Below are positions 16,801 to 54,872 of a DNA stretch of 64,000 nt, one piece after another; the first letter of the stretch is position 1; each line of letters begins with the position of its first letter. Source of the stretch: Asterias amurensis. Taxonomy: Eukaryota > Echinodermata > Asteroidea > Forcipulatida > Asteriidae. The position numbers were made by a program, and so were the translations under genes. The notes under the pieces were generated by a model. That model did not search any database, was not told the origin of the DNA, and saw only the letters and a program-made list of their open reading frames with translations. The stretch spans positions 14,859,501-14,923,500 of the forward strand of contig NC_092668.1 of the NCBI RefSeq assembly GCF_032118995.1, in the 5' to 3' direction.

Positions 16801-16838
16801 TTCCAAAAACAGCTCAAATGTGAAACTGCTTGATTGAG

Positions 16839-16898
<60 letters not shown>

Positions 16899-21905: not shown

Positions 21906-22629
21906 CGTGTACTTCCTAGTGATTTTAATAAATTAAATAAGCACAAATATTGAAGCTAATAATAAATGTTTCGCACGTAATTGTGTGACCTTTAAATTAA
22001 TAGTACACAACAGTAAACTCAACAGCTTTTGTCGTCATTTTCTCTGGTTTTTGTCAGTCACAGATGACTGTAAATCTATTCTAAAGTAAAAATGTAAACA
22101 TGCAATTTGAAAAATATATAATAAACTGCTTCTACTAGTACTCATCAAGAGGTTCTGCTTCTGGTTTGTTACTGCTTAATCTCCTAGGATGGGATGTTTT
22201 GATTAATAACAATCATGGCTATCTTTAAATATAGAAAATAAACTGCCCTGCCCCCCCCCCCCCCCAAGTAAGAAAGATTTCCTTGCTTGACCTTCCTTGA
22301 GGTCGAGTTGACAAAAATTACAATCAATGACAATTGTGACAATAAAATAGATTTTGGAGCAGTTTTTTGGCACTCCCTGCTTTTTTGGGGAGACCTGGGT
22401 TCTACAATCTCATTTGCTTTCATTCATAGAATTTCCGAATACCGCCCTGTATAAACTAATGGATAAAATCAATCCAACCGGCATTAGCCATGAACACACA
22501 CGGAGTCGGCTCCCGGTTAAAACAGCATTGAAATTACGTTGCAAAAAATGACTTCATAAATTTCCAACAAAACCTTAACATACTCACCCTTCAAAACCAC
22601 CCTCTATCCAATAATTCTATCCTACTGAT

Positions 22630-29200: not shown

Positions 29201-32200
29201 ATGCAAGTCGCCAGACACACAAGGCCTGAAGGCTCTAATTAAATGTGTGGGCTATAATCTATTTTTTTCCAGGCGCCTTTGACATCTACTCCTGGGACTG
29301 AAACAGGGTTACCCCCTTTACAGTCCATACAAATATAGGCTTGGATATCATCCATCAGAAGCCTGGGTAGTAGAGCCGAAAGCACTACCTCCCCAACTTT
29401 ACGAAGCAATCGCGGTTAAGTGTCTTGCTTAAGGACACAAGTGTCAAGACCAGGACTCGAACCCACACTCTGCTGATCAAACACCAATTTATAATTACGA
29501 ATACTTGTAGTAAATAAACCAAAGTTTTTGTGAGAGAGATTGGTTGTTGCCAGCTTGGTGTTTATATCCCCTTGTGGGAGTTTGCGGAGTTCCCTTGATG
29601 GGAAGATCATTCAGACAAACAAACAAACTACAAAGACAATGGAACCCGTTAGTGACTGATAGTCTTACTCTATGCTCCTAATAATTATTATTATTATTAT
29701 TATTATTATTACTGGTTTATTGTAAAACATCTGCTTGTCGCAGTCCAGAGACTGATTTAAAATACAGATTTACATTTTTATATACAAAATTTAAAAAGCA
29801 CAGGAGAAAATTTATACACAAGAAACATTGAAAATTTAAAAGCACTGAAAAACTAATAGAGCTTTCCAAACACCAATGATGCATCCCACCTTTAAATCCC
29901 CAGATCCAACGTCTCTAATTGTATTTCCATGTATTAGCGAACTACCCAGGGAATAATGTTATTGGACGGACCATAGAGCAAGGAACGACTTGGGGTGCTT
30001 CAGAGTAAATGAAGCATATTGTAATGTAGTTTTTGGAGCTTGTTTTTTCAGGGATTTCTACTGACATGGCTGAGCTCCTAATTCAAATGATGCCCCCTGG
30101 GCCTGAAATTTCATCTTTGAAGGGGCATGGCTAATTTGTTTTACAGAGGGCAGCACTTCTGGGCAATCTGAAGTGTTTGGGAGTATTTTGAAAGGGCACT
30201 AAGGCCAATACATGTAGATGATCAAAGGTGAACTATACAACGGGGGCTAACAATCAAGCGAGGTTTTTCTGTGCTTTCCTAATACATGATTACTTTATGT
30301 TTTAAGAAGTTAAGCCATGTGAAATTTGCTTTGAATATTAAGTACATGTTGTTTAAGTTATTTTAGACTTGAGTCAGTTTACTGTAGTTTATAGCCCCTT
30401 TCACACAAGAGCAATTTAGCAAGTGTCCCCTGCTAAGTTGTAGCATGGTTGTAACATTTTACAAAATGTACCTCCTGTGAAAGGACAACTGCGCTGTACT
30501 GTCATCCATTGATCATGCTTATATTGATTGCCGGACGGAGCATGCTTATTCTCCTCACAACAGACACGTTTTCATCTTGTTTAGCTTTTAGCATTCCTTT
30601 TTGGTTATCAGCAGTGGACAGTAAAGCTGATGGATTGTAATGTTAGCCAAAGGCTTCAGGACTGGAAAACACAATACAGAATCAAATTTTAAAGGTTCAT
30701 TTTCTGGCTTGGATGAGGAGATGGTCAATGGTATAACTGAAAGAAAACAAAACAAAGACAAACAAAAAACTTCGGAACAAAAACAATTCATGAGATGAAA
30801 ACTATACACTATTGTACTTCAAATTGAATTGACCCACAAGGTTAAAAACTACCCACAACTTGAGGAAGATTGTTAAGTGCATTTCATCAATGCACTATTG
30901 CCAGAGAAATAATTACATGACCTTGTATCTTACAATCTAACAAAATAAAATAAAATTTAATGGTGGTGGAGTGACATGGCCGAGCATTCTACAGCAGGCG
31001 ACTTAAGTATATATATATTACACAGAATATAGGAATTTTTTTAGCAGCCTATAGCAGACTGTTTATCATGGTAGGGAGAAACTATGGATAATGCGCCTCC
31101 AGACTATTTAACCTCTTGCTCTGAACATCCAAGAAGGAAATGATTACCGGTCATAATTCCCTCTGGCTTATTTAGTTATTCTTCCTCTTCCTTTAATGGA
31201 TGTTGTTCAGCTTCTTAAACCATCTCCTTTCGTTTCCCCCTTTGTCTCATTGTTCATTGTTCAACCTTTATTTGTCTGTCTGTGTTCTTCCTTTCCCTCA
31301 AGTTGCATTTATTTCCTCTTCACTGCTTTTATTACACCAATCTACCTGTTTATAGATGTTGTGGTGTCATTTAGCATTCAAGAAAGCTAGGGTCAAAACG
31401 TCAGGCCATTAACTATTGAATTAGACAGTACAGTAATAGACCAGGAGGGAAACTGATTGGTGTAGTAGACAGCCAACGTTAGAGTGATTTCTTGCTCCAT
31501 GGTTGATAATAAGGGCAAGAGTGCCAGCAAATTATTCCAGAGCCATTGTCATTTTCTCTATAGAGTTCACCTGGAAATTAAGTTGAATTAGATGTAATTC
31601 TGAAGAATTTTGCCAATTCAAATCTACAAACAACAAAACATCGCCCTGGAGGCCTTAATATTCCCAGACCCAGAAAAAAACCTAAAGATATGCTTGCAGA
31701 AAAGCTGTGAATCAAACTGGTTTGCTTGACATCCAAGAAATGTTTCTTAATTAAATTGAATTTATGTCCAATGCTGTCTAGAGAAACAAGCAAAAGCTCC
31801 CTGACCTACAAGACGCCTCCCTCTCTTCCCTTTCCTGAGAATAAAACCACCAAGAGGCCCAACCTGACGGAACTCAACAATCCAGATGACGGCAAACACC
31901 TGACTGTTGGCTCAGTCGATAAAATAATCATCATCGTGTCCAGAAAAAAATATTGGCAGGCGTGAATTCATGCGGGAGTAATATTTTTCTTGTGAGCGGG
32001 TGCCAGCCGAAGTAGGGAGATAAGGTAGCACCTTCATAAAAATGAGTTTTAAAGGGAGATTGTCAGCTTTTTTTATAAGGAGGTTGCAAAGTGATTTAGG
32101 TGTTTGTATTGGGATTCAATCCCTTACCAAGTTGTAATTAAAATTCTGCAAAGAATTCCGCAAAGTCGGGAATGGCAAGCAGCTCTGAATGATTTGATAA

Positions 32201-35200
32201 CAAACTAAAACAATAATCATAAAATAAATTTCAACAGGCCAGAATACAATCCCGAGAGTATTAGAGCCACACCTAATCCTTAGAATCTACAGCGCTCATG
32301 GGGAGGATTAGTGAAGATTAAGCTTGTCTGGATTAAGCCGCTTAAACTCTCTGTTCAATTAAATTCAAAAAATGTCAGTGAGAAATATTTTAATTTCCCG
32401 GAATACAGGTAGAGAAATAGATACCTTAAGAACTATAGTCAACTTTTTTTTTTACCCACTTGTAATTTTTGATTTTAATATTTGATTTAAGTATCTGTTA
32501 ACTCAACTTTTTCCAAACAATCAAATATTCTGGTAAAACAATATCCCGTTTTATTTGTTTTTTCACTTAAACGTAACAACGGAATTAAATGAAACTATCA
32601 TATGTTGGTTGTAATGGTGTGTTCAGTATACACTAAAGGATGAACATGTTAAGATGCAGTATCCCTTTAAGCTGTTTTGGGTCTCACTTTGTCGTAACCT
32701 CAAACCTTATTGATAGATCTTGAAGAGGGGAAGGACTGATGTCTGTACTGATGGGTTTCTCAGGACTCTCCCCAATGCAATAACCCGTAAGTGGCGTGCA
32801 CGTCATGCTAATCAGTCTTCAAGTCGAAGTCTCTTCTAGGAACAACCCCCAAGATCGCTTCCCCTCTGACTACCCATCCCTCACACAATAATATTGATTG
32901 CTGAACGATATGTTCATCTTACTCCATGTGCTCTGATAATAGCACCAGGCTGACGCTGGTACACATTTCTGCTGATCAGAATTTTTCTTTGCTTGGGAAA
33001 TTTCTGTGCCAAATAGCAATAAATTAAATTGGGCTTAATCTTCTAATGGCAGTCAACTTTAATGCAATCTATCCGGGCACCTTGAAAATAAATTAGCGAC
33101 AATAAATAAATTAATAAATAATTATACATATATATGTAAATAATGTAGTAAAAAAAATACATGATGATAATAATAACAACATTTATAGAGCACTAAAAAA
33201 AAAAACCAAAACACAACAAAAAAACCAAAACACACACTTTTCTTGAGTGTTGTTTAGTACTTTATGCAGATCAAAGGGCTCCCTATATACACAATGAGAA
33301 AGACATCTCATTTCTCATATCATCAGGAGCCAGACTAAACTTTCCTCTGAGCCTCATTATGGTTACATTGGGTTACATACTGTAGCAAGATGGCTTCAAT
33401 ATTAAATTAGAAGAGTCTGTAGGTTTCTTACCTAACTCTGGAGGATCAACCCTGAAGGAATCATCGTTGATTGTTAACGTGAATGGATTTCTCATCAGAA
33501 CGTCGATGCTTGTAGATTTAGCAATCTTCACTCCTTCTACAAGACACAAAAAGCAAATGTTTAATTAGAATCTATATGCCAGACTGGCTAAAGTACTAAA
33601 GCAACATAAGTGGATGTAGGTCACATCAGAGGCTGTTAGTAAACCTTATAAGCATTTAAGTACAAGCCATTTCCAGCCCTGCTATGGGCTTTTTGGTACA
33701 AGTCAAATAACTGATCAGTTTTTTTTTGTGGCTAATAACTAATAAGCAGCTCTATGAAAATTGGCCCCAAACTGAATGCAGTTCAATGTTCTGGCTCTGC
33801 ATACTGTTGAATTATTGACCTATAGCACCTAGAGAATGTGGTCCCTTCTCTATGAATTGATAGAACTATGTTCTTAAAAGGGCACCGTAAGCGCAGAATT
33901 CCGCAGAAAACATAGTCATGAAGTTAGACCCAGATTATGCATTTTTCATCTGTTTCTCTGAAGTAAAGTTTTTAACTTAAAAAAATGAGTGAAAAAAAAC
34001 CACCAAAAAAACTGAGTGTTACATAGCAAATTATTCAATGTTAATTCACTCTTTGCCATTGTGACTACAACTTCATAAATATACCAAGAACAAGTAACTA
34101 AAATACACAGGACATAGTACAATCACAATTAGTTAACCATTCGAAAATAAAACAGCGTCTTACATTCCAAACAAATATTTACCCACTCTCTGTACTTCGT
34201 TTGTTTTAGCGGACATGTCACCCTAATATAGGACTGACATTTAAGGTGAGACAACTACAATTCCCTTGTGATGAACCGTTCTTCATTGACTATTTGCATG
34301 AGTCATAACTCACAGCTGGGAATCATATAATACAAACAGTGAGCCTGTGGCATGCACTTTGTCGTTTTATTAGAGGCAAACTACAGTGTTGGCCATAAAT
34401 AAAGGAAGATTCAATCCTCACTGGTTTAAAGTTCACGGCAGAACTTATCCTCCAGAGAATTATCCCAATCTGAAAAACTGTCAGAGTTGAGGAAAATGTA
34501 ATTATTTGAAATTATTTGGCTTGCAGCAGTAGAAATGAGCAGGAATATTGATAACATGATAAAACATGGATGAAACATTAAACCGCTCTTCGTAATTTCA
34601 CCTGGGAAAAATGTGTAAATTGTCAAAGACCACGATCTGCACTTTGTGTTCTGACCCAAACATTATGAAAAAACAAACCTGTTAAAATAAAAACCCTTAA
34701 ACCAATGTGTGATAAGCACCGAGTACTCGCTGCTTTCTTGGTCCTAAGGAGAGAAATATGTATGCTACTCAGGTGGGATTCAACCCTCCAAGACCTGCCG
34801 CAGTCTTAACCAAAGTGTGGATATTTCTAATTGTATAATTAGTAACAAAACAAAAGAGATGTAGGGGGATATTGTGCGGTCGGAATCAGTCTTAAATAGC
34901 AGAGAGATTTTCAACCAAATGTGTACAACTTTGAGGCAACAAATTGCACTGCATGCCAAAGAGGGTACTCAGTACCAAACAGGAGGCACAATGTTCCCTC
35001 ATATTGCCAACCAGAGGTGTTAAAGCGCATTATGTGTGATTTACCTTCATTGGAAAGATCTATTGCGTTGTGTGTGACAGCCCCCAAAATCATCAGAATT
35101 TGTGTCATTCAGTTGGAGCATAAAGCTAATAATGTAAATTTATGCGTAAATTGAGGCAACAGTATCGACTTGTACAGCCAGACCGGTCAATATCAGCCAC

Positions 35201-38200
35201 TATTGGTTTTGAATGACAGAAGAGCTCCGCTAGCTGACAATTGGATAACATGTGGTAATTTATTATTGCATAGTACACTGTAGTTTAATACAATTGTGCA
35301 TCCGTGCACAACCTCTGCAACTAAATGGTTTCAAATGGTTGATAGGTTTTAAAAATGTTACAAGTATGAAGGTTAACACATGGGATTTGGGGCATGGTGA
35401 GGTACACTGCAGCAACAGTTTGTGTATCTATTTGCTGGGTAGATTTAGAGAACTTGTCTTGCCTTTTTCTATTGCCGTAAAAATAAGTTAACGAAGACTC
35501 CACATCTTGTTGCTGATGTTGTTGATAAAAAAAGGACCTTTATGATATAAATGTCATCAAACATTGTGCGTACCTTCGTTGTATATTCCTGCCCAATCCA
35601 CTCCCCCATCTTCAGCTTTAACATGGTTGATGAAGTCGCCGACTGTCTCTGTTACGGGTTTCAGGGTAAACTGGCAGCGTTCTCGTCTTGAGGGCAGAGG
35701 TACGAGTAGGACAGGGAGACCATTCTGGTACTCACACTGCACGCCTGTAGGGAATAACAAACAAATAAACAAATAAACAAATAGACAAACAGTAAGTCAA
35801 AGTATTGATGCACACATATTTAAAAATACTCAATTCTTAAAATATTTGTAGGTGTTTTTTGACAGTCCTAAAATATCTTTGAATAGAATTGCAACAGGCT
35901 CTTCTTAAAACAAGTTTTCTCTGTCTTGAGAAAATCGGTCATAGAATATCATCTTTAAATGAGAAACACTAAGTCATTTTGCAACAGGCTCTTCTATTTA
36001 AATACTCGGAAAGTTATGAATATATTTTAAGGGGCACAAAGGCCAAGACAAGTGGTGTAGCTTTAAAAAGATCGTTGATCACTTTACGCTCATGAACGCC
36101 TATCACACGATGGATCAAAGAAAGTATGTGATGTGTGGCATGGTTAAATATCCTAAGAAAAATACATGCCCTGTCAAAAGTAAACACTTACAGGAACTAC
36201 AGTAAACCTATGTACACGGCACTACTAATTGCTTTTACATGTTTGTTTTAAGATGAACTGGCAGGATTTGGCAAGACACTAGCACAGTAGTACAATGTAC
36301 ACAATGTAGGCATTGGCTTTTAAGTGGCTTACTTAGTTCACGCCTGAAACAACACAACAGATTTATGAGGATTTGAGATGGTTTTTTTTTTAACCAGATT
36401 GATCCTAGACTTCGCTAAATTGCTCCAGTACCACTCACATTACTTGTACATCAATCACACAAATTTTGTTTGTGGAATATTGTTGTTGAAAATAAAATGA
36501 CTTTATGAAAGAAACAGCAGGCAGTTTCAGTTAATATCAGCCGCTAGTTGGCACACAGTCGTTGTGCCAACTTGCTCATGACCAACAATGCTCATGACAC
36601 AGGCTAAACAAAATATTTCCTACTATAGATGTTAAATTTGCAATCAGGGATAAAGAATATTAATTTAGGTTTAACCCTTTCACCATGTACACTAATGTGT
36701 GTTAACACTGTTGTACACATCACTGTAAGGCAAAAACAGAAATTAATATATTCTTTACCCTGATGTTCAATTCTGATATCAAAAGATTTAGATCAGACCG
36801 TATTAAACTGATTATTTAGCCTATCATGTTGAGAACCAATTAATTATAAATCCAATACAAGGAAATCCACTGACAAACTGGACATGTTGACACAAGTGTC
36901 ATGTTACCATGGCGACTGTAATCAGTACAAATAGGGCAGACCAAGATAAGCAAGTATGTCTATTTTTTTTACAAATTGTTCTGCTTTAGAAACTACAGAG
37001 TTTGTTTTACAGCAAGTTCATTTTGAAAATTTTGTGTGGTTTAAAGGACAATTAAACAAAAAAAGTGTACAACATATTTAATATTTTAAAAATGAAACAA
37101 ATTAGTGAAAACCTCCAGACTTAATTTTTTTTTATATTGCACACACAGACCCTTGTCATTCAATAGTTTGCCAGTTATGTATTGCACTTCCCCGCCTGTT
37201 TGTTCAAACACGGCAATGTCATATCATTGCAAACTTGTGAAAATACATTCGCCAACAATGCACTCTTATGCTCCAATATTTGTATAATAATTGCTCCACG
37301 TTTAGAAAGAGGTTTATGGCAGTTAAACATGAAAAGCTAACGTGCATACTCTTGAAAGATTTTTTTTTTAAAACACGGAGGCTACGGAGGAGGCAATTTG
37401 CCTCAACGATGCTGGCTATTGGATTGCCTTGATGCCCTAAGCAGAATTTGACCTTTTTGCTGATAGATGTACATGTGCCTTTCACTCATGGGCAACTCAG
37501 TACATGGCCCTTATAGGCCTGTAAATGCTCCCCACAAACCCAATTAAATTACTGCTTAATCGCAAGCTTTGTCAAATTCCCTTACCCAACATAGAAATAA
37601 AACACTTGCTTTTCAAACGGGTGAAAAAAAAAAGAGCCAGACTTATTACAAATTCTTAAAAGCTTCAATTTATTTCCGGGGACTTGTAGATGATTGACAT
37701 TTTGCTTGAGGCAGACCGATATGGAAATTATGAGTATGTGATTAAATTTAAAGGAAGCACTGCCAGAAATTGCAGTGTTCTGGATGCTTACAATTATGTA
37801 AGCGTTGTCCTTTCCCTATGATGTAAGTGTGTCAAGGATGTCTGCAAGCTCCTTTTGAAGCCAAGGTTTTTAACTTGTTTGTTCTTCACTCCAACACATT
37901 TTCTCTACCCACATTCAAGTGAGGTGACAGTAGGTCACGTCATCTCTTGCCCATTTCAAGGCAGAATTCAAACAGGAATACCCAAATGTTGCTTTGTATC
38001 GAGTCAGATTTTTTTTAACATGATTTTTTTTTTTAAAGGTTTCAGATACTAATTTTACAGAATGCTCAATACCATTGCTATTTTTAAAACAAGTCAGGCT
38101 TTTGGAAAAAAAAAAAAAAACAATTTCTGTTTTGGGTCCTCAAAGGCAGTGGACACTATTGATAATTAATCAAAATAAATATTAGCATAAAACCTTTCTT

Positions 38201-41200
38201 GGTGACAAGTAATGGGGAGAGGTTGATGGTATAAAACATTGTGAGAAACGGCTCCCTCTAAAGTGCCATAGTTTTCGAGAAAGAAGTAATTTTCCACGAA
38301 TTTGATTTCAAGACCTCAGATTTAGAACTTGAGGTCTCGAAATCAACCATCTAAACGCACACAACTTTGTGTGCCAAGGGTGTTTTCTTCTTTCATTATA
38401 ATCTCGCAAGTTCGATGACCGATTGAGCTCAAATTTTCACAGGTTTGTTATTTTATGCATATGTTGAGATACACCAACTATGAAGGCTTGTCTTTGACAA
38501 TTATCAATAGTATCCACTGCCTTTAACACTGTATGCATCTCAACTGGACAGGCAATATAATGAACTGAGTGTTCATTCCATAGTTAAAAAGTAATACCTT
38601 TACAGGATTTACAGGTTTGGCTGGTCAGTGAAGGACTGATGTACACAAATACAACCATCGAGCAAGGAAGACATCAGTTTGCCTTTAAGTAGGATTTTAA
38701 ACTTTGCCTTTAAACATTATTTGATTAATTCACTACATTCATGAATCTCTAACAGTCAGACAGTACAGTTAGCACACTGACTGCTTGACACATTTATGTT
38801 ATATGCAGGTGTAGCGACAGGGAAGCCAGAGTGCCTAGGATGCGTCTATTGTGTAGACCCAACAACTCTTGATTCATTAGAATTTTAAATTTGAGTTTTT
38901 CAAGAGGACTTTTTTGAGACCGTGGCAACATGTGATGTATTTAACCACGACCCAGCAAATTGGATTAATATTATTTGCACAATTTTGAATAATTTAAGAG
39001 GAGACTTGTACACACTGTCAGAAAGTATCTACTGGTTAATATATGAGTCGGGCACGATCATAAATGCAAATTTGTGGATGTTGGACTTACGAGATCTACT
39101 CAATACTCATTTAGTGTAAATTTCAAGCACTGTATTATAATTTTTGTTATTTCAATTTATGATGAGCAATTTGCATCCAATGCAGTCACTTCCACAACAA
39201 GTTTCTGTCCATGAGCGTAACGGGTGATTAAGTTTAATGATCAGTGTAATAAATATTAATTCACCACAACACTACAAGTACGTGCACAGGGTGTACAGTA
39301 CGCAAAGAAATGCATAGTTCTACCGTTTGCTTTTGGAAAACAACAAAGGGTAGGACTACTATTAGAAGTACTAAGGGAATCAATGTGTGGTGAAGAGGTT
39401 TTCAACTAGTGGTTTAAACCTGTCGAGGCCTGGTGCTTGATAATTTTACCAAGATGAAGTCAAGGTAAATTATAAAGAACCAGGCCTCGGCAGGTTTAAA
39501 CCACTAGTTGAAAATCGATTCAACACACTTTGATTCCCATTCATAAATACCTTTTCGGTCAAAAAAACATCAAACATTTTTGGTCATAAAGTAAAATAAT
39601 GCAAAAACTATATTGTTCAATGATTTATTTCAACACAACACCCCTCCAGCTATAAAAAGGTTTTGCGTGATGTGGCACAACTGTTCCAGCCGTTGCTCTC
39701 GACCAATAGGAATGAAGAAACTGTCTTATAAGCACAGGTGCAAGCTCGCGTGTCACGCCCAAGTTTCAACACTTTTTACTTTTGTTTTATCATCCGTTCA
39801 AACAACCCCTCGTGGATGCGACCAATCAGAATGGATAAACTGTCTCAGGTATTTATGAATGTTGATTCCAGGCTATTAAAGAGTGGTTGATTAAAGAGTG
39901 GTTGTTAGTGAGCTAAACTAAAAGGACAGTGTTTCCTTTGGTATACAATCTTAGGGTACCACCTCTATAATAATGAGATCCTTCAAGGACAATCTAAAGG
40001 CAATGACAAGGGGAATTGAGGCAATGACCAGGGCAGGGGGCATGGATGGCAATTGGGGGCAGGCATGGGGGCAATTGCTTCTATTGCTTCACAATTACAT
40101 AGAGCAGGACTGTATCTCACCATTATCGCTTGATGCTGAACAGTAAGCCGCTGCACAAAGTCTTAAACTCCCAGGTAGGAATCGATGAGCATCCTGAGGA
40201 ATGAAAGAAAAACCAAGAAATGCATCAGAGACAAGATTGATTGATTGATCCACTCTACTCCTAGAACTTAAGGTTTGTATAGTGAAACCATGGAGCTAAG
40301 TAATAGTTCCATGGTGTAACGAACCTCATGAGTGGATCCACTAAGCCCCGCCCATTTAGAGGGTGTGTCCCTGTCCCTTGCTCAATCAATCATTCAATGA
40401 TTGTATTTAATATGACAGAAAAATTGTAAATTGCAGTTTGAAGACTACAGAGTCAAAGATGTGTAGTATAGAATAGGCCTATAGTAATCTATCTAATTTA
40501 AACAAATGTATGTTTTTAATTTTTAATTTAAGTATGTTTTTTTATTGATTGAAATGAAAATTTAAACTGGAAATGGAATAACTTTCCAGATGGCGTCACC
40601 ACTTTTTCACTCAATTTTACAAAAAGGGATATTCATTGATATAGGATTTGAGGCATTGCATGGTGGGGTATCAATATATGTTTGGTTTGCGGTAACATCA
40701 TGTGTGTATCTACTTGCCAGGTAGAGTTGTTTTTAGGGAACTGTCTTGCTTTATTCTACTGCCGTGGAGTAGATAATCGGAGGTTCGGGAGACTTCTCAG
40801 TTCTGAAAAGAACTGTCCTGCTTTATAACTATTACCAGGGCGGATGGTATAGACATTTGACTGGACTGCTACTTTAGCTTATAGGATCGTAATAACTGTA
40901 CTGCCGCGGAGTCAGTTCGGAATTGGTCTCAACGTTTCGACTAGCTTGCTCTAGTCATCGTCAGGAGACTGAAGAGGTAGAGATAAATAAGCCCACTCCT
41001 CTCATATATTGATATTCATTGAGGTAAAATTATATTATTTCATATCGAATGAAAAAGTACTAAGTAGTGGCGCCATACGGAAACTTTTCCCTGAAGAGAA
41101 CGAGAAATAATTATTGAGAAAATAGAAGGATCCAAATAGAATTAGCTGTTGCAAACAATATGACTGGGCCACCGGCTTTCCCATTTTAAAGTTTAAGTTT

Positions 41201-41419
41201 TGTGTTTATCTTTATCCGTCGTTCGTGTGTGTTTGTGATACAGATATATTTATTTATAGTTGCAAAGAACAGTTCTATTAACCAGAATTTCTAGTAAATA
41301 GTGTCTCCAAATAAAGAAACATTATTTCTTACCCTTTTGCCAGCTTTAGAGAGAGCAGAAAAAGCAAAAAATGCTTGTTGTTTGCAGCGGTCCAAACGGA
41401 AGATGGATCTGAACGCCAT
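26281..41419 (-). CDS. MCU: Mitochondrial calcium uniporter pore subunit
   Basis: MCU forms the tetrameric Ca2+ channel of the inner mitochondrial membrane. Eight coding exons: 41419-41333, 40193-40121, 35744-35574, 33536-33432, 28230-28070, 27709-27506, 26788-26672, 26367-26281. They sum to 1005 nt, 334 aa (human 351). The start [15 protein letters not shown] is basic and amphipathic, as for a matrix-targeting presequence. Next come the N-terminal domain ([19 protein letters not shown]), a coiled coil (~148-199), TM1 (~215-233), the acidic filter WDIVEP (240-245), TM2 (~246-262) and a second coiled coil. The filter fits the family pattern W-D-x-x-E-P; human has WDIMEP. Arg232 and Glu237 before the filter are kept, which separates MCU from the inhibitory paralogue MCUB. 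Large introns carry SINEs, a MITE, fold-backs and a minisatellite. It is divergent to MICU1. Confidence 0.97.
26896..27059. mobile_element. 164-bp near-perfect fold-back element
   Basis: Arms of about 75 bp run from TCTTTTGTGTGAGTGTTGCC to the mirror GGCAACACTCACACAAAAGA around a centre CTCGTCTCAAAGACGAG. The arms include GGTCTCGACGTTTCAAACAG, whose complement contains GAAACGTCGAGACC. It sits in the MCU intron before exon 7 and is non-coding. Confidence 0.85.
28538..28654. repeat. 33-bp minisatellite, ~3.5 copies
   Basis: Units of GCAGAATTCTGTAGTAAGC followed by AGAGTTATGAGTAA repeat about three and a half times in the 5-kb MCU intron. The flanks (28430-28680) resemble fold-back family B, so the minisatellite may have grown inside such an element. 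Confidence 0.85.
29205..29490 (-). mobile_element. tRNA-derived SINE, family D, copy 1
   Basis: On the minus strand it reads AGAGTGTGGGTTCGAGTCCT (box B), ACACTTGTGTCCTTAAGCAA, GGGGAGGTAGTGCTTTCGGC, GGGGGTAACCCTGTTTCAGT, CCCAGGAGTAG and AAGGCCTTGTGTGTCTGGCG. The same modules occur in the same order at 46555-46885, 50058-50278 and 54107-54240. It lies antisense to the family and sense to MCU, in an intron. Confidence 0.75.
29678..29711. repeat. (ATT)n microsatellite
   Basis: About eleven ATT units in the MCU intron between exons 4 and 5. A shorter (TTA)n run lies at 2982-3004 beside the satellite array. Confidence 0.9.
31374..31406 (+). ncRNA. Degenerate hammerhead-like motif, remnant
   Basis: The sequence AAGCTAGGGTCAAAACGTCA followed by GGCC resembles the second half of a hammerhead ribozyme (stem II, GAAAC, GTC cleavage triplet), but G12 of GAAA is lost and the CTGANGA box is only weakly present. 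It parallels the motif at 47856-47896. It is likely a dead repeat fragment. Confidence 0.25.
35196..35490. repeat. Dispersed repeat (family E) copy in MCU intron
   Basis: The stretch shares TTGGTTTTGAATGA and GTTTCAAATGATTGGT-like blocks with 43795-43930, and GTATCTATTTGCTGGGTAGA, GAACTTGTCTTGC and TCTATTGCCGT-like blocks with 40640-40800. These look like different parts of one larger, old element. No coding frame is recognisable. Confidence 0.5.
38142..38524 (-). mobile_element. MITE-like repeat family A, copy 2
   Basis: A 383-bp element with terminal inverted repeats AAAGGCAGTGGACACTATTG and CAATAGTATCCACTGCCTTT. Its centre pairs as a hairpin (GATTTCAAGACCTCAG against TTGAGGTCTCGAAATC). 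It is inverted relative to the copy at 63456-63819 and similar to it over the whole length. It lies in the MCU intron between exons 2 and 3 and has no coding capacity. Confidence 0.8.
39375..39538. mobile_element. 164-bp fold-back element
   Basis: Imperfect palindrome with ~75-bp arms: GGGAATCAATGTG against CACTTTGATTCCC at the ends, and TTTTCAACTAGTGGTTTAAA, CCTGTCGAGGCCTGGT against its complement further in. It lies in the MCU intron between exons 2 and 3. Confidence 0.85.
40640..41050. mobile_element. Dispersed element (family E) with a hammerhead-like motif
   Basis: This repeat in the first MCU intron shares its left part with 35370-35490. At 40971-40925, on the minus strand, it holds GTCTC, CTGACGA, T, GACTAG-AGCAAG-CTAGTC, GAAAC, GTT and GAGAC in that order. 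Stem I (GTCTC/GAGAC) and stem II (GACTAG/CTAGTC) pair fully, and the boxes match the hammerhead core CTGANGA and GAAA with a minimal stem III. One extra T lies between the core and stem II and the cleavage triplet is GTT rather than GTC. Hammerheads with very short stem III are known from Penelope-like elements and retrozymes. Confidence 0.45.
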
Positions 41420-41930
41420 TTTGCTGTCAAGTTGGTTGTAGTCTGGTTCTTCCGCTATACCTCGAACGCATTGGATGCACAGTGGCTGAATTAGAGGCAG
41501 ATGAACCAGACATAACACCCTGCCCATTTAGACTGGTACCACAATTCAATAACAAAAATGACCTATTTACTATGTGTAGTAAACCTAATTTTGAAAAGGG
41601 TACCATTTAACAAAGTACAGAAGAGAGAAATGCACACTTTCGACGGGTTGTGGTGATGTTTTGATCAGGTAAAATTCACCCTTTTAACTTTCTAACAACG
41701 GAATTGAAATGTTTGTTATACACAATGTACGTTTGATGGTTTTTCATTGTGTATTCTGAGGGTATTTCATGTGCGTAGATGGTTTTCTTGCTTATTTATA
41801 ATGGTGATATTTTGTAACCGAAAATATAGTTGTAAAATTTACTTTTATTTTTTTTAGCTCATCATTAAATGTTGTTTCAGTCGTATAATCTTTATTGATG
41901 GATTAGGTGAAGTGACGGTTTCCAAACAGG
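41420..41930. promoter_or_regulatory. Shared divergent promoter region of MCU and MICU1
   Basis: Only 511 bp separate the MCU start codon (minus) from the MICU1 start codon (plus). There is no TATA box at a fitting place for either gene. Near MCU the minus strand has ATAGCGGAAGAACC, an ETS-type GGAAG core. For MICU1 a noncoding first exon ending GATCAG|GTAAAA at 41668 and an acceptor after a long T-tract (TTTTTTTTAG at 41857) can be read, which would leave a 190-nt intron in the 5' UTR. Transcription starts are inferred. Confidence 0.6.
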
Positions 41931-44900
41931 ATGTTCAGATCTGTAGCACGACGGACCCTTCAAGTCCTCGTTCAGCAGCGATGGAGGACCCTGTCAAGTG
42001 CGCCCCCTAGTGTCGTCATCCAGTCTCCATCTCGTATGAAACACATCTTGTCCCTCTTTGGGGGCGGGGCTGGTGTGGTTACCGCAGCGATCATGTGGGA
42101 AAGGTTAGCACTTTAGGGCGTGCCTGATGATTGTGACTGATTTCGTGAAAGTTTAGGACTCAAGGGTCAGGGAGGATACCAGTTAAAGGGGGCGGGGTCG
42201 AGGTTGGGGAGGTGATGAGTGGGGTTGCGTCCGATAAAACTGGGCATGCTGGATGTGAATTCTTTTATACCGAAAAAAATCAACAAAGCAGAGAGTTGGT
42301 AACCCGAGTGTAAGACTTGGCGAAACTGGACTGAAGACTTGCTCTAAAAAAGATTTGCCAAGAAAGATTTAGACTTGCCCGGAAAAGACTTGGAATAGAT
42401 GACAGATAATCAGCAATACTTACAAATATTGTGAATGCTGTTCCATTGATCTCTGTTTTCTTTGAGGTTTAAAACGTTTTATTTAATGTACTGATGAATA
42501 CTATTTTGGTTCTCAGGGCACAGACAATTCATGCCCAAGAGGTGCAGAAATCAGAAGAAGATGTTGCCATGGCATCAGAGGACCAGAGTGTTGAGGAAGG
42601 AGAAGAAGTTGAGAAGAAAAAGAAAGGACCTGGATTCAGAGATAGAAAGGTAAACCCTAACTTTAAGAAGCTTAATCTCGCTTTTACCAGAAAGATGTAA
42701 AAGAAACATAAATATGAATAATGTGTCGCATCTGTAAAGCAGAGAACAATAATATATTTTAATATTTTTTTTATGTCATGAAGATTATCGAGTATGAAAA
42801 TCGCATCCGCGCCTACTCAACTCCAGACAAGATATTCCGCTACTTTGCCACGTTGAAAGTTTTCACGGATGACGGTATTTCAGAAATCTTTATGACGGCA
42901 GAAGATTTCATACGAAGCATCACTCCAGACGAGAAACAGCCAGAAGGTGAGACTTTCTTTATAAGTTTTAATCAAGGATTAACTCTTACAAACTTCAGTC
43001 ACCACTGGGCTTGAACTAAGGGGGAGAATTCACAAGACTGCTGGGATTGTTGCCAAGAATGTTAATAACTTTCAGTTATAACCATATATTTGTTCTCTTT
43101 TTGTTAAAAGGACTTGGACTAGATCAGTTCAAGAGAGTAGAAGCAAAGGTATGTGGAAAGTTGTAGAATTCTAATTTTATTTCAGACCATGAAATTGGTG
43201 TTTGGTGAATGTAAAAGTTCAGTTTGTAAAAGATTCTTAGTAGGGTGCGTTCAGACAAGGTACTAAAGTTGGTTTAACTCATGGTTCAACTCGATTGAGT
43301 TCAACTCAGTGTGTCTGAACGGATCTAAAGTTAGTCCGAATTGAGTTCAACCCACAAAAGATAAACCGTCCAGGGAGGGGGTTTATCTTTAGACCGCTTC
43401 GGGTTTATCTTTTAACACTGTGTGTGGACAGAATAGAAAAGACCACATCCGGTTTAACTCACAACATGCGACCCATTGACCTCCGTAATCATTACGTAAA
43501 CACACGGTGACCAATGTACAGGACAATAAACAGGAAGTTAGAGTAACGGGGTCGCGTTTTCTTTGACCTCTTAAAACCAAAGATAAACCGGATCGGGTTT
43601 AACTCAGTGCTGTCTGAACGCAAAGGGGTTTTATTTTTACAATCACCCCCTGCTGCTCGTAAAAGTTAAACCGGTTCGGTCTAACTTAGTACGCTGTCTG
43701 AACATACCCACTATGTATCTGATCTCACTGGGGATAATCTATATATCATCCTGCAATATGATTTCATATTTCTGACCATTCAATATCATCTACTGTGGTT
43801 TTGAATGATAGATGCACTAAGCCAGCCGGTAATATGATGTTTTGTGGTGAATGCATCTATACACTGCTGCATAGAACCATTGTAGTTGGTTTCAAATGAT
43901 TGGTCAAGTTACTGGACAATGTAGGAGGTTGATGACAAAAATCATTTCTTTCCACTTATATTTCCAGAGAAGTACTGACATAGTTAGTTCTTTGTAACTG
44001 AAGAAAGAACGAACTGATTTTCTTTAAATTCTTTTCTGTGTTGTGTAGAAACTAAACTTGAAGAACCAGAAGTTTGGAGAGGATAGTATATTTGGGATGT
44101 TGGGCGAGTGCGGATTGATCTCCTTTGCTGACTACATGTTTCTCATCACAGTCTTGTCAAGTAAGTTTGTTTTAAAAGCAGTGGTTATATTTTACAATTG
44201 ATGCCAACAATCAGTATTGTTTTCTGTTGTGCACAAAATTTGCTGCAAAATTGCGTGAAATGTGACCAGGCTTAAGACATTTACAACTTGGCTGCTGGAA
44301 CTCAAGTCCAATGAACTAGACAGCTTGGCTACGGATCTTGCTACAAATCACATCAGAATATCTGAAACTTGTAATTTTACTTAATGTTTGATATAGTGTG
44401 TAAAAATGTTAGATTGTTTTCCAGTTGTTTTTTTTTTACCATAATTTTGTATGTTTTATTTGATAGCTCCCGAGAGACATTTTGAGATAGCTTTTCGTCT
44501 CTTCGACATCAACGGGGATGGTGATGTTTCTTATGATGAATTCCAACAGGTGAGGATTGAGGAAATCTTCATAACATGATTTTAGAAATACACTTCATGA
44601 AGTATTTATGGAGGTTGTTTCAACCAACAGCCACTGGGATTCTTGCAACAGTCACTGTGACTTCCTGTGTGATTATTTTCACTCAAACATTTTAAGCAAT
44701 GAAATATTATTGTTATCAATGAAACTACAGCGTCTTGTAAAGACACTCACATGGTCTTTAGCACTTGTGTGTACAGTTAAGTTTTCAATTGATAGTTCTT
44801 GAAAAATGGTCCATTGGGGCACCAAGGCCAAGACCAGGGGCAACAGAGGTCATTGCCACCGTGTCCTGCGTGAAATTCCAGGCTCACACACCTCAGTGCT

Positions 44901-47535
44901 GAGATCAATAGAGGCAGCTATTCAGTCTATTTAATAACTTCATATTTCCCCAATTTTCTCACTTGTAGGTGACGGATGTCATCAGAGCTCAAACAGCAAC
45001 AGGAAAGAAACATCGTGATCGTAAGACCACTGGAAACACTCTGAACAAACCCTTCAACAGCTCTCTCGACACTTTCTTCTTTGGCCCAAACCTGGACAAG
45101 AAGTTGACTTTTGAATCCTTCGGTAAATTTCACAAACATCTGAAGGAGGAGATTCTGAAAATGGAGGTAGGTCAACCCGTGGAGGTAGAAACCATGGTCA
45201 ACCTGTGCCTTTTCTTCAAAGTGGTGCCAAAATTTAACAATTTCACTAGAAAGAATTATAACGAGCATTTATAATGAGTCTTGAGAGAAGTTTTGAACAG
45301 AGCTAGTGATGGAGAAAGTTAAACATGATCCGACAAGCTGTTCCATAATGAGGGGGCAGCAGAAGTAAACGCTCGTTCACCTTGTGATGTTTTGGCCAGG
45401 GGTTAAAATCTCAAAGACTGGCGGTAAAAAAGATAGGGTTGGAGTCTTTCTGAGAGATATGGTGGTGCAGTGCCTTTTGATGAGTGATAGACATATGCAA
45501 GGATCTTGAAAATAATTCTGTCCTTCGTGGGTAGCCAAAGTATCAGGATGGGTGTGATGTTTGCTAACATCAGGGCCCAACTTCATGAAGCCTGTAAGCA
45601 TAACAACTGGTGAAGCACAGAAAATGTAAGCACAGAAATCGATTACCAACCAAAGTTCCATAAAGTTAACATTGTTGAAATTGGTGCCCCACTCAGTTTA
45701 TGCTCAGCATAGAAATTTGCTAAGTAGAATTTTCTGCTAAACAGCTTGATGAAATTGGGCCCTGGAAGCAGAAAGTGACTTCATACTGCATTTTCTCTCT
45801 TTTACAGTTTGAACGCTATGAGCCGATCAATGGTAAAATCACTGAGCTGAACCTGGCTAACTTCCTCCTGGTCTACGCCGATCAGATTCCAAAACCAAGA
45901 AAATTAAGGATGAGGAAGAGGGTCAAGAAGAAGTTTGCCGAAGATGCAAAGGGACATGTAAGTATCTTTACTTTTCAACTTTGACCTCTACGTTTCTCAG
46001 ATTTGCTTAAAGGGATTGTAAATAAATCTTTATGAAGCCCAAAATGGACACAGGAAAGTGCCAAAAATTGTGCCTTACTAAAAATTTGTTGAGATCTGAC
46101 ATTTTTGCAAGGAATGCCTCATGCAAGATGGGATAGGATTTCATCAACACAATGATATGGTAATGGTTGTACAGAAATGCAGAGTGCCTTGTGGAACTCG
46201 GTATTTCATAATTATTTAGGACTTCTTTTTTTGTAAAGCCCCTTTTATAGGCTTTATTGACCCAATGCATGTCATCACAATAATCTTGGTTGTGCCATTT
46301 CAAGAGATTGTCCCAAATGTCATACAGTGTAGTAGTGGGTGATTTATGCAAGGTGGTATTTACACATTTACTGTCTTTGTATTGTTGACTTCAGGGAATC
46401 ACACTGCAGGAGTTTATGGACCTTCAGCGTTTTCTGAGTAGCATACATGATGTGGATACAGCGTTATCGTTTTACCATGTGGCTGGTGCAGCTATTGATC
46501 AAGGTAAGCAACTCACTCTGTGGAATTATGGTCTGTTTCTGTGCTTTTATGACGTGTCATGGCTAAGAGCACCAGATTCAAGCTCTGGTGTTTGATCGGC
46601 AGAGTGTGGGTCCGAGTCCCGGTTGTGACACTTGTGTCCTTCAGCAAGACATTTAACGTTGATTGCTTTGTAAAATTGGGGAGGTAGTGCTTTCTGCTCT
46701 ACCAGCCAGGCTTCAGATGGATGATACCCAAGCCTACATACGCATGGACTGTAAAGGGGGTAACCCTGTTTCAGCCCCAGGAGTAGGTGGCACAGCCACT
46801 GGAAAAATAGTTGATTGTAGCCCACTCCTTGAAATGGCCTTCAGGCCTTGTGTGTCTGGCGACTTGCATACAAAAGTAAAGAAATAAACCTTTTAAAAAC
46901 CCAAAGCTTTTGTCCTTCAAGCTCTCGATATTCAGACTGTTTTCATTTATTGGTACTTCCATCCATCTTTGAACAGAAACCTTGAAGCATGTTGGGAACA
47001 TGGTTGCACATGTACAGCTGACAGACAGGGTACTAGACATTGTATTTACCCTCTTTGATGAAAATGGTGAGTGAGGTTTCATTTTTCAGAAATACATTAC
47101 CTTGACGTTTACTTTAACCAATGATAACTGCACATTTATTTATGACCAATCAGAGGCCTTCCTCTTGGTATGTCATAACAATGCACCCACTTGAATCTAT
47201 CTATCTTTTCTGATTTAATAAATACAACAATTGTTTGGTAGTGTTGTTGAGAAACACTCTCACTTGAAAGAGGATCAGCCCTGACTAAGTATCTCAGAAG
47301 GAGTGTAGATGAACACACAATATATACAAAATCTCTGAACTAACACAATTTATTTTACTTTTGTTTTTATTTCCTAGATGATGGGAAGTTAAGCAACAAG
47401 GAATTCGTAGGAGTTGTCAAAAACCGAATACAGAGAGGACTGGACAAGTCTAAGGAGCTGGGCCTCTCACGCATTTTGGATGCAATGTGGAAATGTGCCA
47501 GGAAAACACAGATATTCCCAAGTACTGGGAGCTAG
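41931..47535 (+). CDS. MICU1: Mitochondrial calcium uptake protein 1 (uniporter gatekeeper)
   Basis: MICU1 sits in the intermembrane space and closes the MCU pore at low Ca2+. Eleven coding exons: 41931-42103, 42517-42649, 42784-42946, 43111-43148, 44049-44160, 44467-44549, 44969-45166, 45808-45957, 46395-46503, 46977-47066, 47378-47535. They sum to 1407 nt, 468 aa (human 476). The N-terminus [19 protein letters not shown] is a mitochondrial presequence, followed by a hydrophobic segment ([13 protein letters not shown]). The polybasic [12 protein letters not shown] (91-102) and [20 protein letters not shown] are diagnostic of MICU1 over MICU2/3. EF-hand 1 is [12 protein letters not shown] (220-231), EF-hand 2 [12 protein letters not shown] (414-425); both have intact ligands. 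Cys456 in AMWKCARK corresponds to the Cys that links human MICU1 to MICU2. Introns hold a MITE, a SINE and a fold-back. Confidence 0.97.
43243..43709. mobile_element. ~467-bp MITE-like element in MICU1 intron 4
   Basis: The ends GGGTGCGTTCAGACAAGGTA and TACGCTGTCTGAACATACCC are imperfect inverted repeats. Inside, GGTTTAACTC- and GTCTGAACG-like blocks recur. There is no coding capacity, and I could not identify a clear target-site duplication. Confidence 0.65.
45573..45762. mobile_element. Fold-back repeat family B copy
   Basis: The element starts GGGCCCAACTTCATGAAGC and ends GCTTGATGAAATTGGGCCC, an inverted repeat of about 19 bp, with inner AAGCACAGAAATCGATTACC. It lies in MICU1 intron 7 and is related to 25596-25756 and 62170-62366. 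Confidence 0.75.
46555..46885 (+). mobile_element. tRNA-derived SINE, family D, copy 2 (fullest)
   Basis: The head has box A (TGGCTAAGAGC), GATTCAAGCTCTGGTG and box B (GGGTCCGAGTCCC), so it derives from a tRNA. The body follows with TGTGTCCTTCAGCAAGACAT, GGGGAGGTAGTGCTTTCTGC, GATGGATGATACCCAAGCC, GGGGGTAACCCTGTTTCAGC, CAGGAGTAGGTGG and GGCCTTGTGTGTCTGGCG. It lies in MICU1 intron 9, in the same direction as the gene. Confidence 0.8.
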
Positions 47536-49240: not shown

Positions 49241-52200
49241 ATGGCAGCCGAAAAGTTTGGACATTTTGCTGTTTCTGGACAAGAAGGACGGTTACCAATG
49301 GTAACAGTGGATGCATTCACCGATATACCGTTTGCTGGAAACCCAGCTGCTATCTGCCTGCTAAATGAGGTAAGGGAGCAGTGTTTGTTTGAGGTCATGT
49401 TTTTTCTTTCTACTAAAGAATCTAAATGTTGGCGTTTAGAAAATAGTGATATAGTCCAAGACTAAATCAAACTTTAAAAGCACCGAGCATAAACTTTATC
49501 ATCCTACATACATAGAGCAAGTCACGACTTATAAATTGTGAGCTTAACTTTAATTATATTAATAAGTTTTAGGTAGCAAACACAACAGAGGAATGAAATC
49601 AAAATGGTGTACTTCCCAAAAAGCAAAGACTGAATGAAAGAGAAAGTGAATTGACAATGAATAATGATGGGGGGGGGGGGGGGGGCATGAGTGAGACTTG
49701 CTGCTGGAAATTTAGAGTACTAGGTAGTCCTTACTAAGCAAGTTGGCCTGTAAGTATTAGTATTAAGGCTAAATCATGTGCTTTTGTTAATTCACTCTGA
49801 CCTGACTCGTCACGTGGAGTCATGATTCATGATGTACATCAAATAATCTAGAAAACGATGAATTTAAACTTGTCTGTGACTACTGGAGCAATTTTTTTCT
49901 TGTTGTTACATTTTTTATTGATTTTTGTCTACTTAGGATATTAGGATAAGATGAAAATTGCAGCCGAGATGAATCTATCAGAGACGGCTTATTTACAGAC
50001 AGTCCAACCGGAAGAATCATTTCAGAATGGTAAATACAAGAGTCGATCATAATGTAGCTTTCGTAAAGTTGGGGAAGTAGTGGTTTTTGCTCAACCAGCC
50101 AGGCTTCTAATGGATGATACCCTAGCCTACATCCGTGTGGACTGTAAATGGGGTAACCCTGTTTCAGCCCTAGGAGTAGGTGGCAACAACCCCTGGAAAC
50201 ATAGTTGAATTGTACCCCACACCTTGAAGTGGCCTTCAGGCTTTGTGTGTCTTGCCCCAAAATGTGTGTGAATGCTCTGCGCACCGGGGCGTGTTACTAG
50301 ATGTGCATTCATTTGACGTAATGGTTTACAGTTGCCTATTAATATCCTTTTTCTTTCATACAGCAAGTCGGGTGAAGATTCGTTGGTTTACTCCCACCAA
50401 TGAGGTCAATCTTTGTGGCCATGCGACCCTAGCATCTGCAGCAGCCTTGTTTAACGTCGTTGGTAACAGGTGCGATTCCATCAGGTTTCAGTCCAAGAGT
50501 GGGGAGCTGATAGCGAGTCGAGAAGGGAAGTCCATCGGCTTGGATTTCCCTCTAAATAAACCATCAAAAGAGGTATTCATTCAGACTTTCTCAAATACTT
50601 TTCCATAAATTTGCCAGTAAAGAACGTAACCACAACATTTTTGACTAAAATCCTTTTCTGCCCTCTGTTGCCCTACGGCTGACACAACTGCACCGGATTG
50701 AATCCCTACAAAAGTTGGACCGTATAGTAAAGTTTGAGCTAAAAAACATTTATATTTTTTATTTTCTCTTGGTTTGTTTAGGATGAGGCACCTCTATCAG
50801 AATTAATTCAGGTAAGTTTCCTTCAAATAAACTATCAATCATGAAATTTTGTTTGGTCCAATTTTTCTGGTATACTTTTGTTTAACCCTAACTCCTTGAG
50901 TAAGTTACTTAAAACGTTGCTCAATAAACAAAAACCTCATCTCCCATTTTGATGCCTTGGCTAAAAATTCACAATGCACTTAGGACAAGTTGTCAGTATC
51001 ACCTTCATTTTATGACATCACACTTCTCTTAGCAATTAGTTTTGGGTCAATTTAAACTGCCACATATCAGTTTAGTATAACCCCAAGTTCAATAGAATCA
51101 GACTGGACTGGTGGTTGAATATTTGAAAATGACAACTTTTCTCAATTTGTGTACAGGTAACCATTGGTGACTATAAACCCCAAGAAGTTTTTTATTCTGA
51201 AACAACTAAAAAACTGCTGCTTAGACTTTCGGACTCTGAGACAAGGTACTAGAACTTGTAAGTGTTTAGAATGAGAATTGTTACTTTTGCCGTTAAATGT
51301 TGGCAAGTAGTATGCTATATGATCTTATAAACTAAATTTTTTTCATGCTACAAGGGGAATGTAAATGTGCCTATGGGTTTGGAAGGGGGTCGCTTAGCAG
51401 TCATATAAATCAAATTCTGCTTAGGGAGAATAGTTGGGTATCAAGTGCCTTCATTTCAAACGAGAGCAACCGGTCCTTAACATAGTTATGTATTATTTTC
51501 TCCTATTCTACAGAGACACTTTGGAGAGTCTGAAACCAGACTGTACAGCCATGATGGCTGCCCCTAATGCTTCTCATGTACGGGGTGTTATAGTGACACT
51601 GAAGGGTAACCGTGACAACGGTGCCGTGGATGCAGAAGACAGACAGTATGATTTCATCTCCAGGTATTTTTCTCCGTGGAACGGTATCCCAGAAGACCCT
51701 GTTACAGGTTAGTTGATCCAGACACTGGAAAAGTTTAGATAACCTTGTTGTATAAATATAATGTTGTGACAGAACCGTCTTGTGCACAGAGGTCATCATG
51801 ATGATATCCCCTTGAACAAAGAACTTGACCATAATTTGCTTCTCTCACCCTCACCATATGTAAGGCTCGATCATTTCTCACATGGACATCCCTGCCAGTT
51901 TTAAATGTTGACTTAAGACCCCGTCACCTACTCTTTTATTCCCTTATTAAAAAGATGTTCACTGTATCTTTTGTTCAGGTTCTGCACACACTGTTTTAGC
52001 TGGTTACTGGGCAGAGAAACTGAGCAAGAAAGAACTTTATGGTAAGATTTCAAATTGATCTTATTTGATACTTTCTTAATGTTTAAAATGGAAGTAGTAG
52101 TGGCCTACAGTTGACATGTAAGCTACTGTTGATCTCAGTTGAGTGAGATGAAGCAATGTTTTCATCGTGAAATGTAAACGTAGATTACATCGTTCTCTGA

Positions 52201-53844: not shown

Positions 53845-54872
53845 TTATGCCTTGTTGAAGAATCTTGTTGCCTTGGTTCCCATAATGTCAAAACTCATGA
53901 CTAGTTGACCTCCAACAATCTCACGGGTCGCTGTCCCGTTTCCACCAGACCCTTTGAGGACGAGCTTATCTCCCTCCCAGCAAGGTGTGGCTTTAACCTC
54001 AACCCCTCGGAGGGCCTTGATGTCTGGGTCGGAAAACTCAACACCTGAAGAAAAGAAAATACAATCATAGTTATTAATTAGAATAATAGTAATAATAATT
54101 GTTGTGAAGGTAGTGCAATCTGTTCTACCAGGGAGGGTCCTTGTGGATGATACCCATGCCAACATCTGAAGGAAGGGGGTAACCCTGTTTCAGCCCTAGG
54201 AGTAAGTGGCAATGAGCCCCTGGTGGCAGTTAAGTAGCCCTCACCTGTGGCCTTGTGATGTTACGTGATCTTTCATAAAAACATTTATAACATTTTAAAG
54301 TAGGATTTTAAACTTTGCTTGATGGAATGCCATCTTAGTAGGATTTGCTATGGAAACCATCTCTCTGTGCAAGTTGAGGTAATACTTAGAATTTGAGACA
54401 TCATGGCCAACTGATTAAAACAATAAATTGTTACACTGCAAGTTGTTTTTAGATTACCAAAACTCATAAAGACCTTAAACGATTGTCAAGGCCCTTTAAA
54501 GATTGTACTGTAGTGTGTTGGTACTCATAAATAGAAGTTTAACAAGGAGACCCGAGGGGGTGGAAGTAATTTTAAATGAACTTCAAGAAACTTAAATTAA
54601 GATTCTTTATGAAATTCCTTGTTTTTCCAAGACAAGAATAAATCTGGAAATCACAATAGATTGTTACACTCACCAATTGTGAACTTAGCCTCACGGCAGT
54701 TGCCATCGGCAGCGGTTGTCTTGACAGTGAAGTCATCTCCACTTTGGGTGATCTCTACGGTAGAGGAGGGGTCAGTAGGGCGCTTCTCAGCCGGTACCTT
54801 AAGAAGGTCTAATAGAGCATCCATACCATCTCCGCTGGCATACACCCACTTTCCGCTCAAGTCACAAGGCAT
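53845..54872 (-). CDS. Fatty-acid-binding protein (intracellular lipid-binding family)
   Basis: A small cytosolic beta-barrel carrier of fatty acids or related lipids. Two coding exons, 54872-54674 and 54044-53845, sum to 399 nt, 132 aa, the exact size of many FABPs. Family features are the start LSGKWVYASGDGMDALLDLL (fingerprint G-x-W), then VEITQSGDDFTVKTT, and the end FDIMGTKATRFFNKA. The usual carboxylate-binding Arg-x-Tyr near the C-terminus is Arg-Phe-Phe here, so the Tyr is replaced. Vertebrate FABP genes have three introns; this one has a single coding intron, plus one in the 5' UTR (acceptor TTTACAG 25 nt before the ATG, noncoding exon near 56265-56330). Two TGT/TGC Cys codons lie in the protein, one at residue 3. 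Subfamily is not clear. It is convergent with PBLD. Confidence 0.93.
54107..54240 (+). mobile_element. tRNA-derived SINE, family D, copy 4 (fragment)
   Basis: The fragment carries GAAGGTAGTGCAATCTGTTC, TGGATGATACCCATGCC, GGGGGTAACCCTGTTTCAGC, CTAGGAGTAAGTGGCAA and GGCCTTGTGATG. It lies in the single coding intron of the FABP gene, opposite to it. Confidence 0.65.

Follow-up and report, generated by a model that had tools for sequence, protein, structure and literature searches.

The ratio of the pore protein MCU to its gatekeeper MICU1 sets the mitochondrial calcium threshold and, to our knowledge, it is not settled how cells keep this ratio. In human, the two genes are divergent with 5' ends separated by tens of kb, so that they have no shared core promoter, whereas here we describe the same two orthologous genes adjacent and head to head with 511 bp between the start codons. 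The locus lies in a 64,000-nucleotide stretch of the genome of the echinoderm Asterias amurensis (NCBI RefSeq assembly GCF_032118995.1, contig NC_092668.1, positions 14,859,501 to 14,923,500 of the forward strand), hereafter the window, in which all positions are counted from its first letter. The linkage as such is already known: in the papers cited here by PubMed Central accession, human MCU and MICU1 form a cluster on 10q22.1, with MCUB at 4q25 (PMC10088886), stand side by side in a table that reads '...DNAJB12, MICU1, MCU, OIT3...' (PMC4256931), and MICU1 is described as close to MCU (PMC9265474), which bears out the statement of a first-pass annotation of the window that the two are neighbours on human 10q22. 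The compact head-to-head form is a new example of a divergent gene pair; among the listed matches in the open-licence literature (titles and abstract starts), none presents MCU and MICU1 as having a bidirectional promoter or a compact head-to-head form. The words 'synteny', 'neighbo' and 'adjacent' are absent from the main text of PMC7423614, which deals with uniporter evolution, and 'CCDC109', 'CBARA1' and 'uniporter' are absent from that of PMC2871058.

Two other divergent pairs resemble this arrangement. HSPD1-HSPE1 likewise joins two partners of one mitochondrial machine in divergent orientation, but its spacing is 49 bp in the human table and it is listed in 14 species (PMC2871058), whereas compact MCU-MICU1 is known from one window. 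The PREPL-C2ORF34 pair is also head to head, spans less than 1 kb between the genes and lacks a TATA box close to its starts; NRF-2 (an ETS factor) and YY-1 jointly drive it from a GC-rich minimal promoter, which was examined by mutation and in reporter assays (PMC2713978). The Asterias locus also carries ETS and YY1-like sites but differs in that the gap is AT-rich, the sites are predicted ones and the full GABP consensus is absent.

Gene models and identities of MCU and MICU1

Both genes were rebuilt from the window by splice-site and reading-frame checks. They lie on opposite strands with the 5' ends facing each other, and both are intact, with GT donors and AG acceptors in all 17 introns and no internal stop in either spliced translation. 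MCU (26281..41419, minus strand) comprises eight coding exons (41419-41333, 40193-40121, 35744-35574, 33536-33432, 28230-28070, 27709-27506, 26788-26672 and 26367-26281) and 334 amino acids. MICU1 (41931..47535, plus strand) comprises 11 coding exons (41931-42103, 42517-42649, 42784-42946, 43111-43148, 44049-44160, 44467-44549, 44969-45166, 45808-45957, 46395-46503, 46977-47066 and 47378-47535) and 468 amino acids. The MCU start codon at 41419 (minus strand) and that of MICU1 at 41931 (plus strand) leave 511 bp between them (41420..41930), which we consider a putative shared promoter region; the interval named in the first-pass annotation, 41333-42103, coincides exactly with this gap plus the first coding exon of each gene. 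Thus the head-to-head pair is confirmed, and what the first-pass annotation had read from the letters, namely two intact genes with diverging first exons and 511 bp between the start codons, holds in the rebuilt models.

Apart from the MCU and MICU1 frames, eight open reading frames of at least 40 amino acids touch the gap; four of these were scanned against Pfam, which yielded one weak match below the cut-off (E 0.051) and no match for the other three. Assuming 25,000 genes, the chance that two partner genes are adjacent is about 8e-5 and that they are head to head about 2e-5, figures that do not yet allow for how many partner pairs might have caught the eye.

The MCU model matches Pfam family PF04678 over the entire profile (1-177 of 177; 7.1e-64) and solved MCU chains in PDB (5.8e-92; the query did not include exons 1, 2 and 4 or a few residues from exons 3 and 5). 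The pore motif, encoded in exon 6 (27506-27709), reads WDIVEP, i.e., DIVE where DIME is expected, a Met to Val replacement that keeps both acidic residues of the filter. The Arg and Glu of the pore segment, which we take to be the residues altered in MCUB, are identical to those of the solved MCU chains in the alignments, a comparison that covered MCU chains and no MCUB sequence. Judged by similarity, the gatekeeper gene is the MICU1 paralogue, not MICU2 or MICU3, because it matches solved MICU1 chains in PDB at 4.1e-113, compared with 2.9e-22 for MICU3 and 1.5e-20 for MICU2 (query without exons 10-11 and two residues). Five EF-hand families of Pfam match the protein at positions 212-235 and 381-432, and two canonical EF-hands can be read in the translation, which also carries a basic stretch, presumably the one that precedes the core, and a C-terminal MWKCA, whose Cys we assume to serve pairing with MICU2.

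The weakest link of the gene models is MCU coding exon 1 (41333..41419, minus strand), a predicted mitochondrial leader, because leaders are poorly conserved. This exon has no homology support of its own and rests on its donor (AGG/GTAAGAAA), with a score of 8.9 compared with 7.3-12.7 for the other six MCU donors, and on its phase fit to predicted exon 2; the start context is AGCAAA-ATG-GCG, and the leader is basic, with 9 Lys plus Arg and 2 Asp plus Glu among the first 48 residues counted from 41419. Exon 2 (40121..40193, minus strand; 73 bp, ending in a split codon), which is absent from the first-pass annotation, is the best of 10 phase-compatible candidates, with a summed splice score of 16.5, compared with 10.4 and 9.4 for the next two, which use the same donor, and its end presumably resembles human MCU at this place. 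The search for this exon required an acceptor score above 0, a limit that two of the 10 coding acceptors of MICU1 would not pass, so that a true exon could be missed. Between 40300 and 43000, five candidates run from an ATG to a phase-0 donor scoring above 4; the two long ones, starting at 41419 and 41527, both end on the exon 1 donor, and the remaining three encode 4-7 residues and have donors of at most 5.2.

Two variants of this 5' end were set aside. Splicing exon 1 directly to the second acceptor at 35736 would employ an acceptor scoring -0.35, compared with 5.57 for that at 35744, although, as noted, negative scores also occur among the MICU1 acceptors. The in-frame ATG at 41527, right after a TAA, bounds an alternative N-terminal extension and would shrink the gap to 403 bp; the 36-residue extension is not leader-like (3 Lys plus Arg, 4 Asp plus Glu), which makes 41527 the less likely main start. 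The stretch 41420..41527 (minus strand) is a possible 5' leader of MCU.

Sequence of the gap between the start codons

The region around the gap is AT-rich (across 41300-42099, the GC content of 300-bp windows is 0.30-0.44) and accordingly resembles neither a CpG island nor a GC-rich promoter. A CpG-island promoter is typical of mammalian bidirectional pairs and is not needed in other organisms. The only TATAAA in 41334-42103 is 381 bp away from the MCU ATG, at 41800 on the minus strand, so that, judged by the start codons, there is no TATA box near the starts. No part of 41334-42103 has another copy in the window at E<=1e-3. Rfam gave no matches at the gathering threshold, and ARAGORN found no tRNAs.

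At the MCU end of the gap, a YY1-like motif (AAAATGGCG, 41414..41422, minus strand) overlaps the start codon, one ETS core CGGAAG (41397..41402, plus strand) lies within exon 1 and another (41449..41454, minus strand) is upstream of the start. The YY1-like pattern AANATGGCG has five matches on both strands of the window, one of them at the MCU start and the others at 8137, 16077, 52714 and 59781, none of these at a recognised gene start. None of 300 simulated first-order Markov sequences of 64 kb combined a YY1-like site and two ETS cores within 70 bp, and one of the 300 combined a YY1-like site and one ETS core. Among 20,000 simulated 770-bp sequences of local composition, the cluster was never seen, a YY1-like site was found in 1.8% and two ETS cores in 1.5%. 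The interval 41334-42103 additionally contains two CRE half sites (0.59 expected), two ZNF143-core motifs (0.49 expected), one SP1 motif and one CCAAT, and has no match to NRF1, the NRF1 half site, the E-box or the full CRE.

On the MICU1 side, a hypothetical intron in the 5' leader could extend over 41669..41857 (plus strand), with a donor at 41669 scoring 7.3 and an acceptor before 41858 scoring 4.1. Both scores are within the range of the coding introns, and sites this good occur in the window about 1.1 (donor) and 1.8 (acceptor) times per kb per strand.

Shared versus independent promoters

The explanation we prefer, and hold with modest confidence, is that pore and gatekeeper flank a single short intergenic promoter region that drives both genes. 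The regulatory steps are those we infer for such a divergent pair: both transcription starts would lie inside the gap or at its edges, one open region would load polymerase in both directions, and ETS- and YY1-type factors bound near the MCU start (41397-41454) would help to drive both genes, with roughly matched transcription of pore and gatekeeper as the result. A common on-switch of this kind for MCU and MICU1 is plausible. In its favour are the complete gene models around a gap that has no further copy in the window, the rarity of the YY1-like/ETS cluster in the simulated sequences and the joint use of NRF-2 and YY-1 by the PREPL-C2ORF34 pair (PMC2713978). If both starts are located in the gap, the distance between them is under about 0.5 kb; in Drosophila and vertebrates, 0-400 bp separate the start sites of most divergent pairs (PMC2670823). 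Furthermore, functional relations are more frequent among the conserved divergent pairs of metazoa and fungi (PMC2871058).

Several observations weigh against a shared promoter. Within the locus, the ratio of observed to expected CpG is about 0.5 over 41300-41699, close to the window average of 0.495, and rises to about 1.0 in 41600-41999 alone. Matches to the YY1-like pattern are frequent in the window (five versus 0.98 expected by simulation), and the one at the MCU start may reflect just a good start context followed by an Ala codon. CGGAAG is rarer in the window than expected (five versus 10.2), with two of the five within 41334-42103. One of these two cores is in coding sequence, and neither they nor the YY1-like site are on the MICU1 side. 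These motifs were selected post hoc out of 21 patterns, and MGGAAGT, the full GABP consensus, has no match in 41334-42103. The 14 plus-strand ATGs that come before the MICU1 start in the gap argue against a long MICU1 leader without splicing and favour either a transcription start near the ATG or a spliced leader. Outside the locus, the distance between the 5' ends of the human genes points in the same direction. In Drosophila, the genes next to MCU are sfl and jv (PMC6506686), so that a uniporter can work without the MCU-MICU1 arrangement. Only 12 of 1427 human divergent pairs are fully conserved in Drosophila, i.e., deep conservation of such pairs is rare, and the pairs were concluded to arise independently by lineage (PMC2670823). 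Finally, co-expression of MCU and MICU1 is reported for colon adenocarcinoma, but MCUB, located on another chromosome, also correlates strongly with both (PMC10088886), so that this co-expression neither singles out the linked pair nor indicates a shared promoter.

The main alternative is two independent back-to-back promoters, which we regard as a real possibility, although somewhat short of an even chance. Under this scenario, MCU and MICU1 would be neighbours by inheritance of an ancient block, the short gap would result from ordinary compaction, and each gene would have its own core promoter and enhancers without any functional coupling. The human pair is linked across a large gap. The SEC31-like and PhzF-family genes described below, for which we know of no uniporter role, share the neighbourhood, so that the linkage needs no co-regulation. 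The confinement of the ETS and YY1-like sites to the MCU side speaks for independent promoters as well, and so do the correlation of MCUB expression with MCU and MICU1 in the absence of linkage (PMC10088886) and the commonness of divergent pairs less than 1 kb apart, which account for 31.6% of Drosophila genes (PMC2670823). What tells against independent promoters is that 511 bp leaves little room for two insulated ones and that conserved divergent pairs tend to be related in function (PMC2871058). A further possibility is that MCU or MICU1 has another first exon, non-coding or different, that lies elsewhere, e.g., inside the partner gene; transcription would then start outside the gap, and the transcripts would overlap or use distant promoters. 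Given the lack of homology support for MCU exon 1 and the possible leader intron of MICU1, this idea deserves mention, and vertebrate MICU1 has a non-coding first exon. Nevertheless, we consider it improbable: the exon 1 donor is strong and in phase with predicted exon 2, the other candidates within 40300-43000 are the three very short ones, and the candidate MICU1 leader intron itself falls in the gap.

Neighbouring genes, linkage and repeats

Downstream of MCU, on the same strand, is a gene for a SEC31-like coat protein (approximately 11107..21932, minus strand). Open reading frame pieces from 18872-21932, joined by hand, match Sec31A in PDB at 1.3e-122; the span down to 11107 was drawn by eye, and two pieces from this extension have no Pfam match. 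The downstream neighbour of MICU1 is a partial PhzC/PhzF-family gene (approximately 49241..51712, plus strand), with a match to Pfam PF02567 of 5e-17 on one piece and of 0.0005, below the cut-off, on the N-terminal piece, and a match to the PhzF family in PDB of 3.9e-18 on hand-joined pieces. We denote this gene PBLD-like on the assumption that human PBLD belongs to the PhzC/PhzF family. If chromosome 10 is taken to carry 3.7% of human genes, the chance that SEC31 and PBLD both have a member on this chromosome is about 0.003.

The human relatives of both neighbours indeed map to chromosome 10: chromosome 10 carries SEC31B and chromosome 4 carries SEC31A, two genes whose duplication fits the early vertebrate genome duplications (PMC3112091), and PBLD is at 10q21.3 (PMC3909616). 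These locations lend some support to the view that the MCU-MICU1 linkage is ancient in deuterostomes, and the SEC31-like/MCU/MICU1/PBLD-like neighbourhood looks like a remnant of an ancestral linkage block, as seen from one window and the human map. In the preferred explanation, that of a single promoter region for both genes, the linkage would have been inherited from this SEC31-MCU-MICU1-PBLD block, with members on human chromosome 10 and partial duplicates, SEC31A and MCUB, on chromosome 4. The NK-linked paralogon of human chromosomes 10/4/5/2-8 provides a parallel in that SEC31B and SEC31A are divided between 10 and 4 in the same way as MCU and MCUB; however, the available text of PMC3112091 does not mention MCU or MICU1, and the extension of the block to the uniporter genes is proposed here.

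We offer a broader scenario as speculation, which we think is rather unlikely to be correct. The ancestral deuterostome might have possessed a compact "uniporter locus", whose single bidirectional promoter determined the MCU:MICU1 ratio through transcription, and the lineage of Asterias would have kept this locus. In vertebrates, the gap would have expanded and, after genome duplication, one copy of the block (human chromosome 10) would have retained MCU-MICU1, and the other (human chromosome 4) would have retained MCUB with no MICU1 beside it. Balance at the level of the locus would thereby have been replaced by separate regulation and by MCUB, a dominant-negative pore subunit. The 511-bp gap makes one answer to the question of MCU:MICU1 ratio control directly testable, and the neighbouring SEC31-like and PhzF-family genes offer a clue to how the three genes MCU, MICU1 and MCUB reached their vertebrate positions.

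Two further genes in the window, FABP-like and LRR-Ig, are members of large families and were left out of this placement. The FABP-like (fatty-acid-binding-protein-like) gene (53845-54872, minus strand) has at least two exons and matches Pfam PF14651 at 2.9e-07 on hand-joined pieces. The LRR-Ig protein is encoded by a long single open reading frame (59161-61509, plus strand) with matches to LRR_8 (1.6e-33) and Ig_3 (9.7e-11), and its C-terminal part contains a 24-bp tandem repeat in four copies (61301-61395).

An interspersed repeat is present in intron 9 of MICU1 (46560-46890) and at 29193-29486, 50057-50255 and 54102-54223, with 76-88% identity among the copies. By eye, its first part resembles a tRNA-derived short interspersed element (SINE), in which ARAGORN calls no tRNA. 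The approximate span of the SEC31-like gene includes a 39-bp tandem repeat (16218-16610; 10 copies, 99% matches), and a 41-bp minisatellite of about 123 copies with 91% matches occupies nearly 5 kb at 3034-8031.

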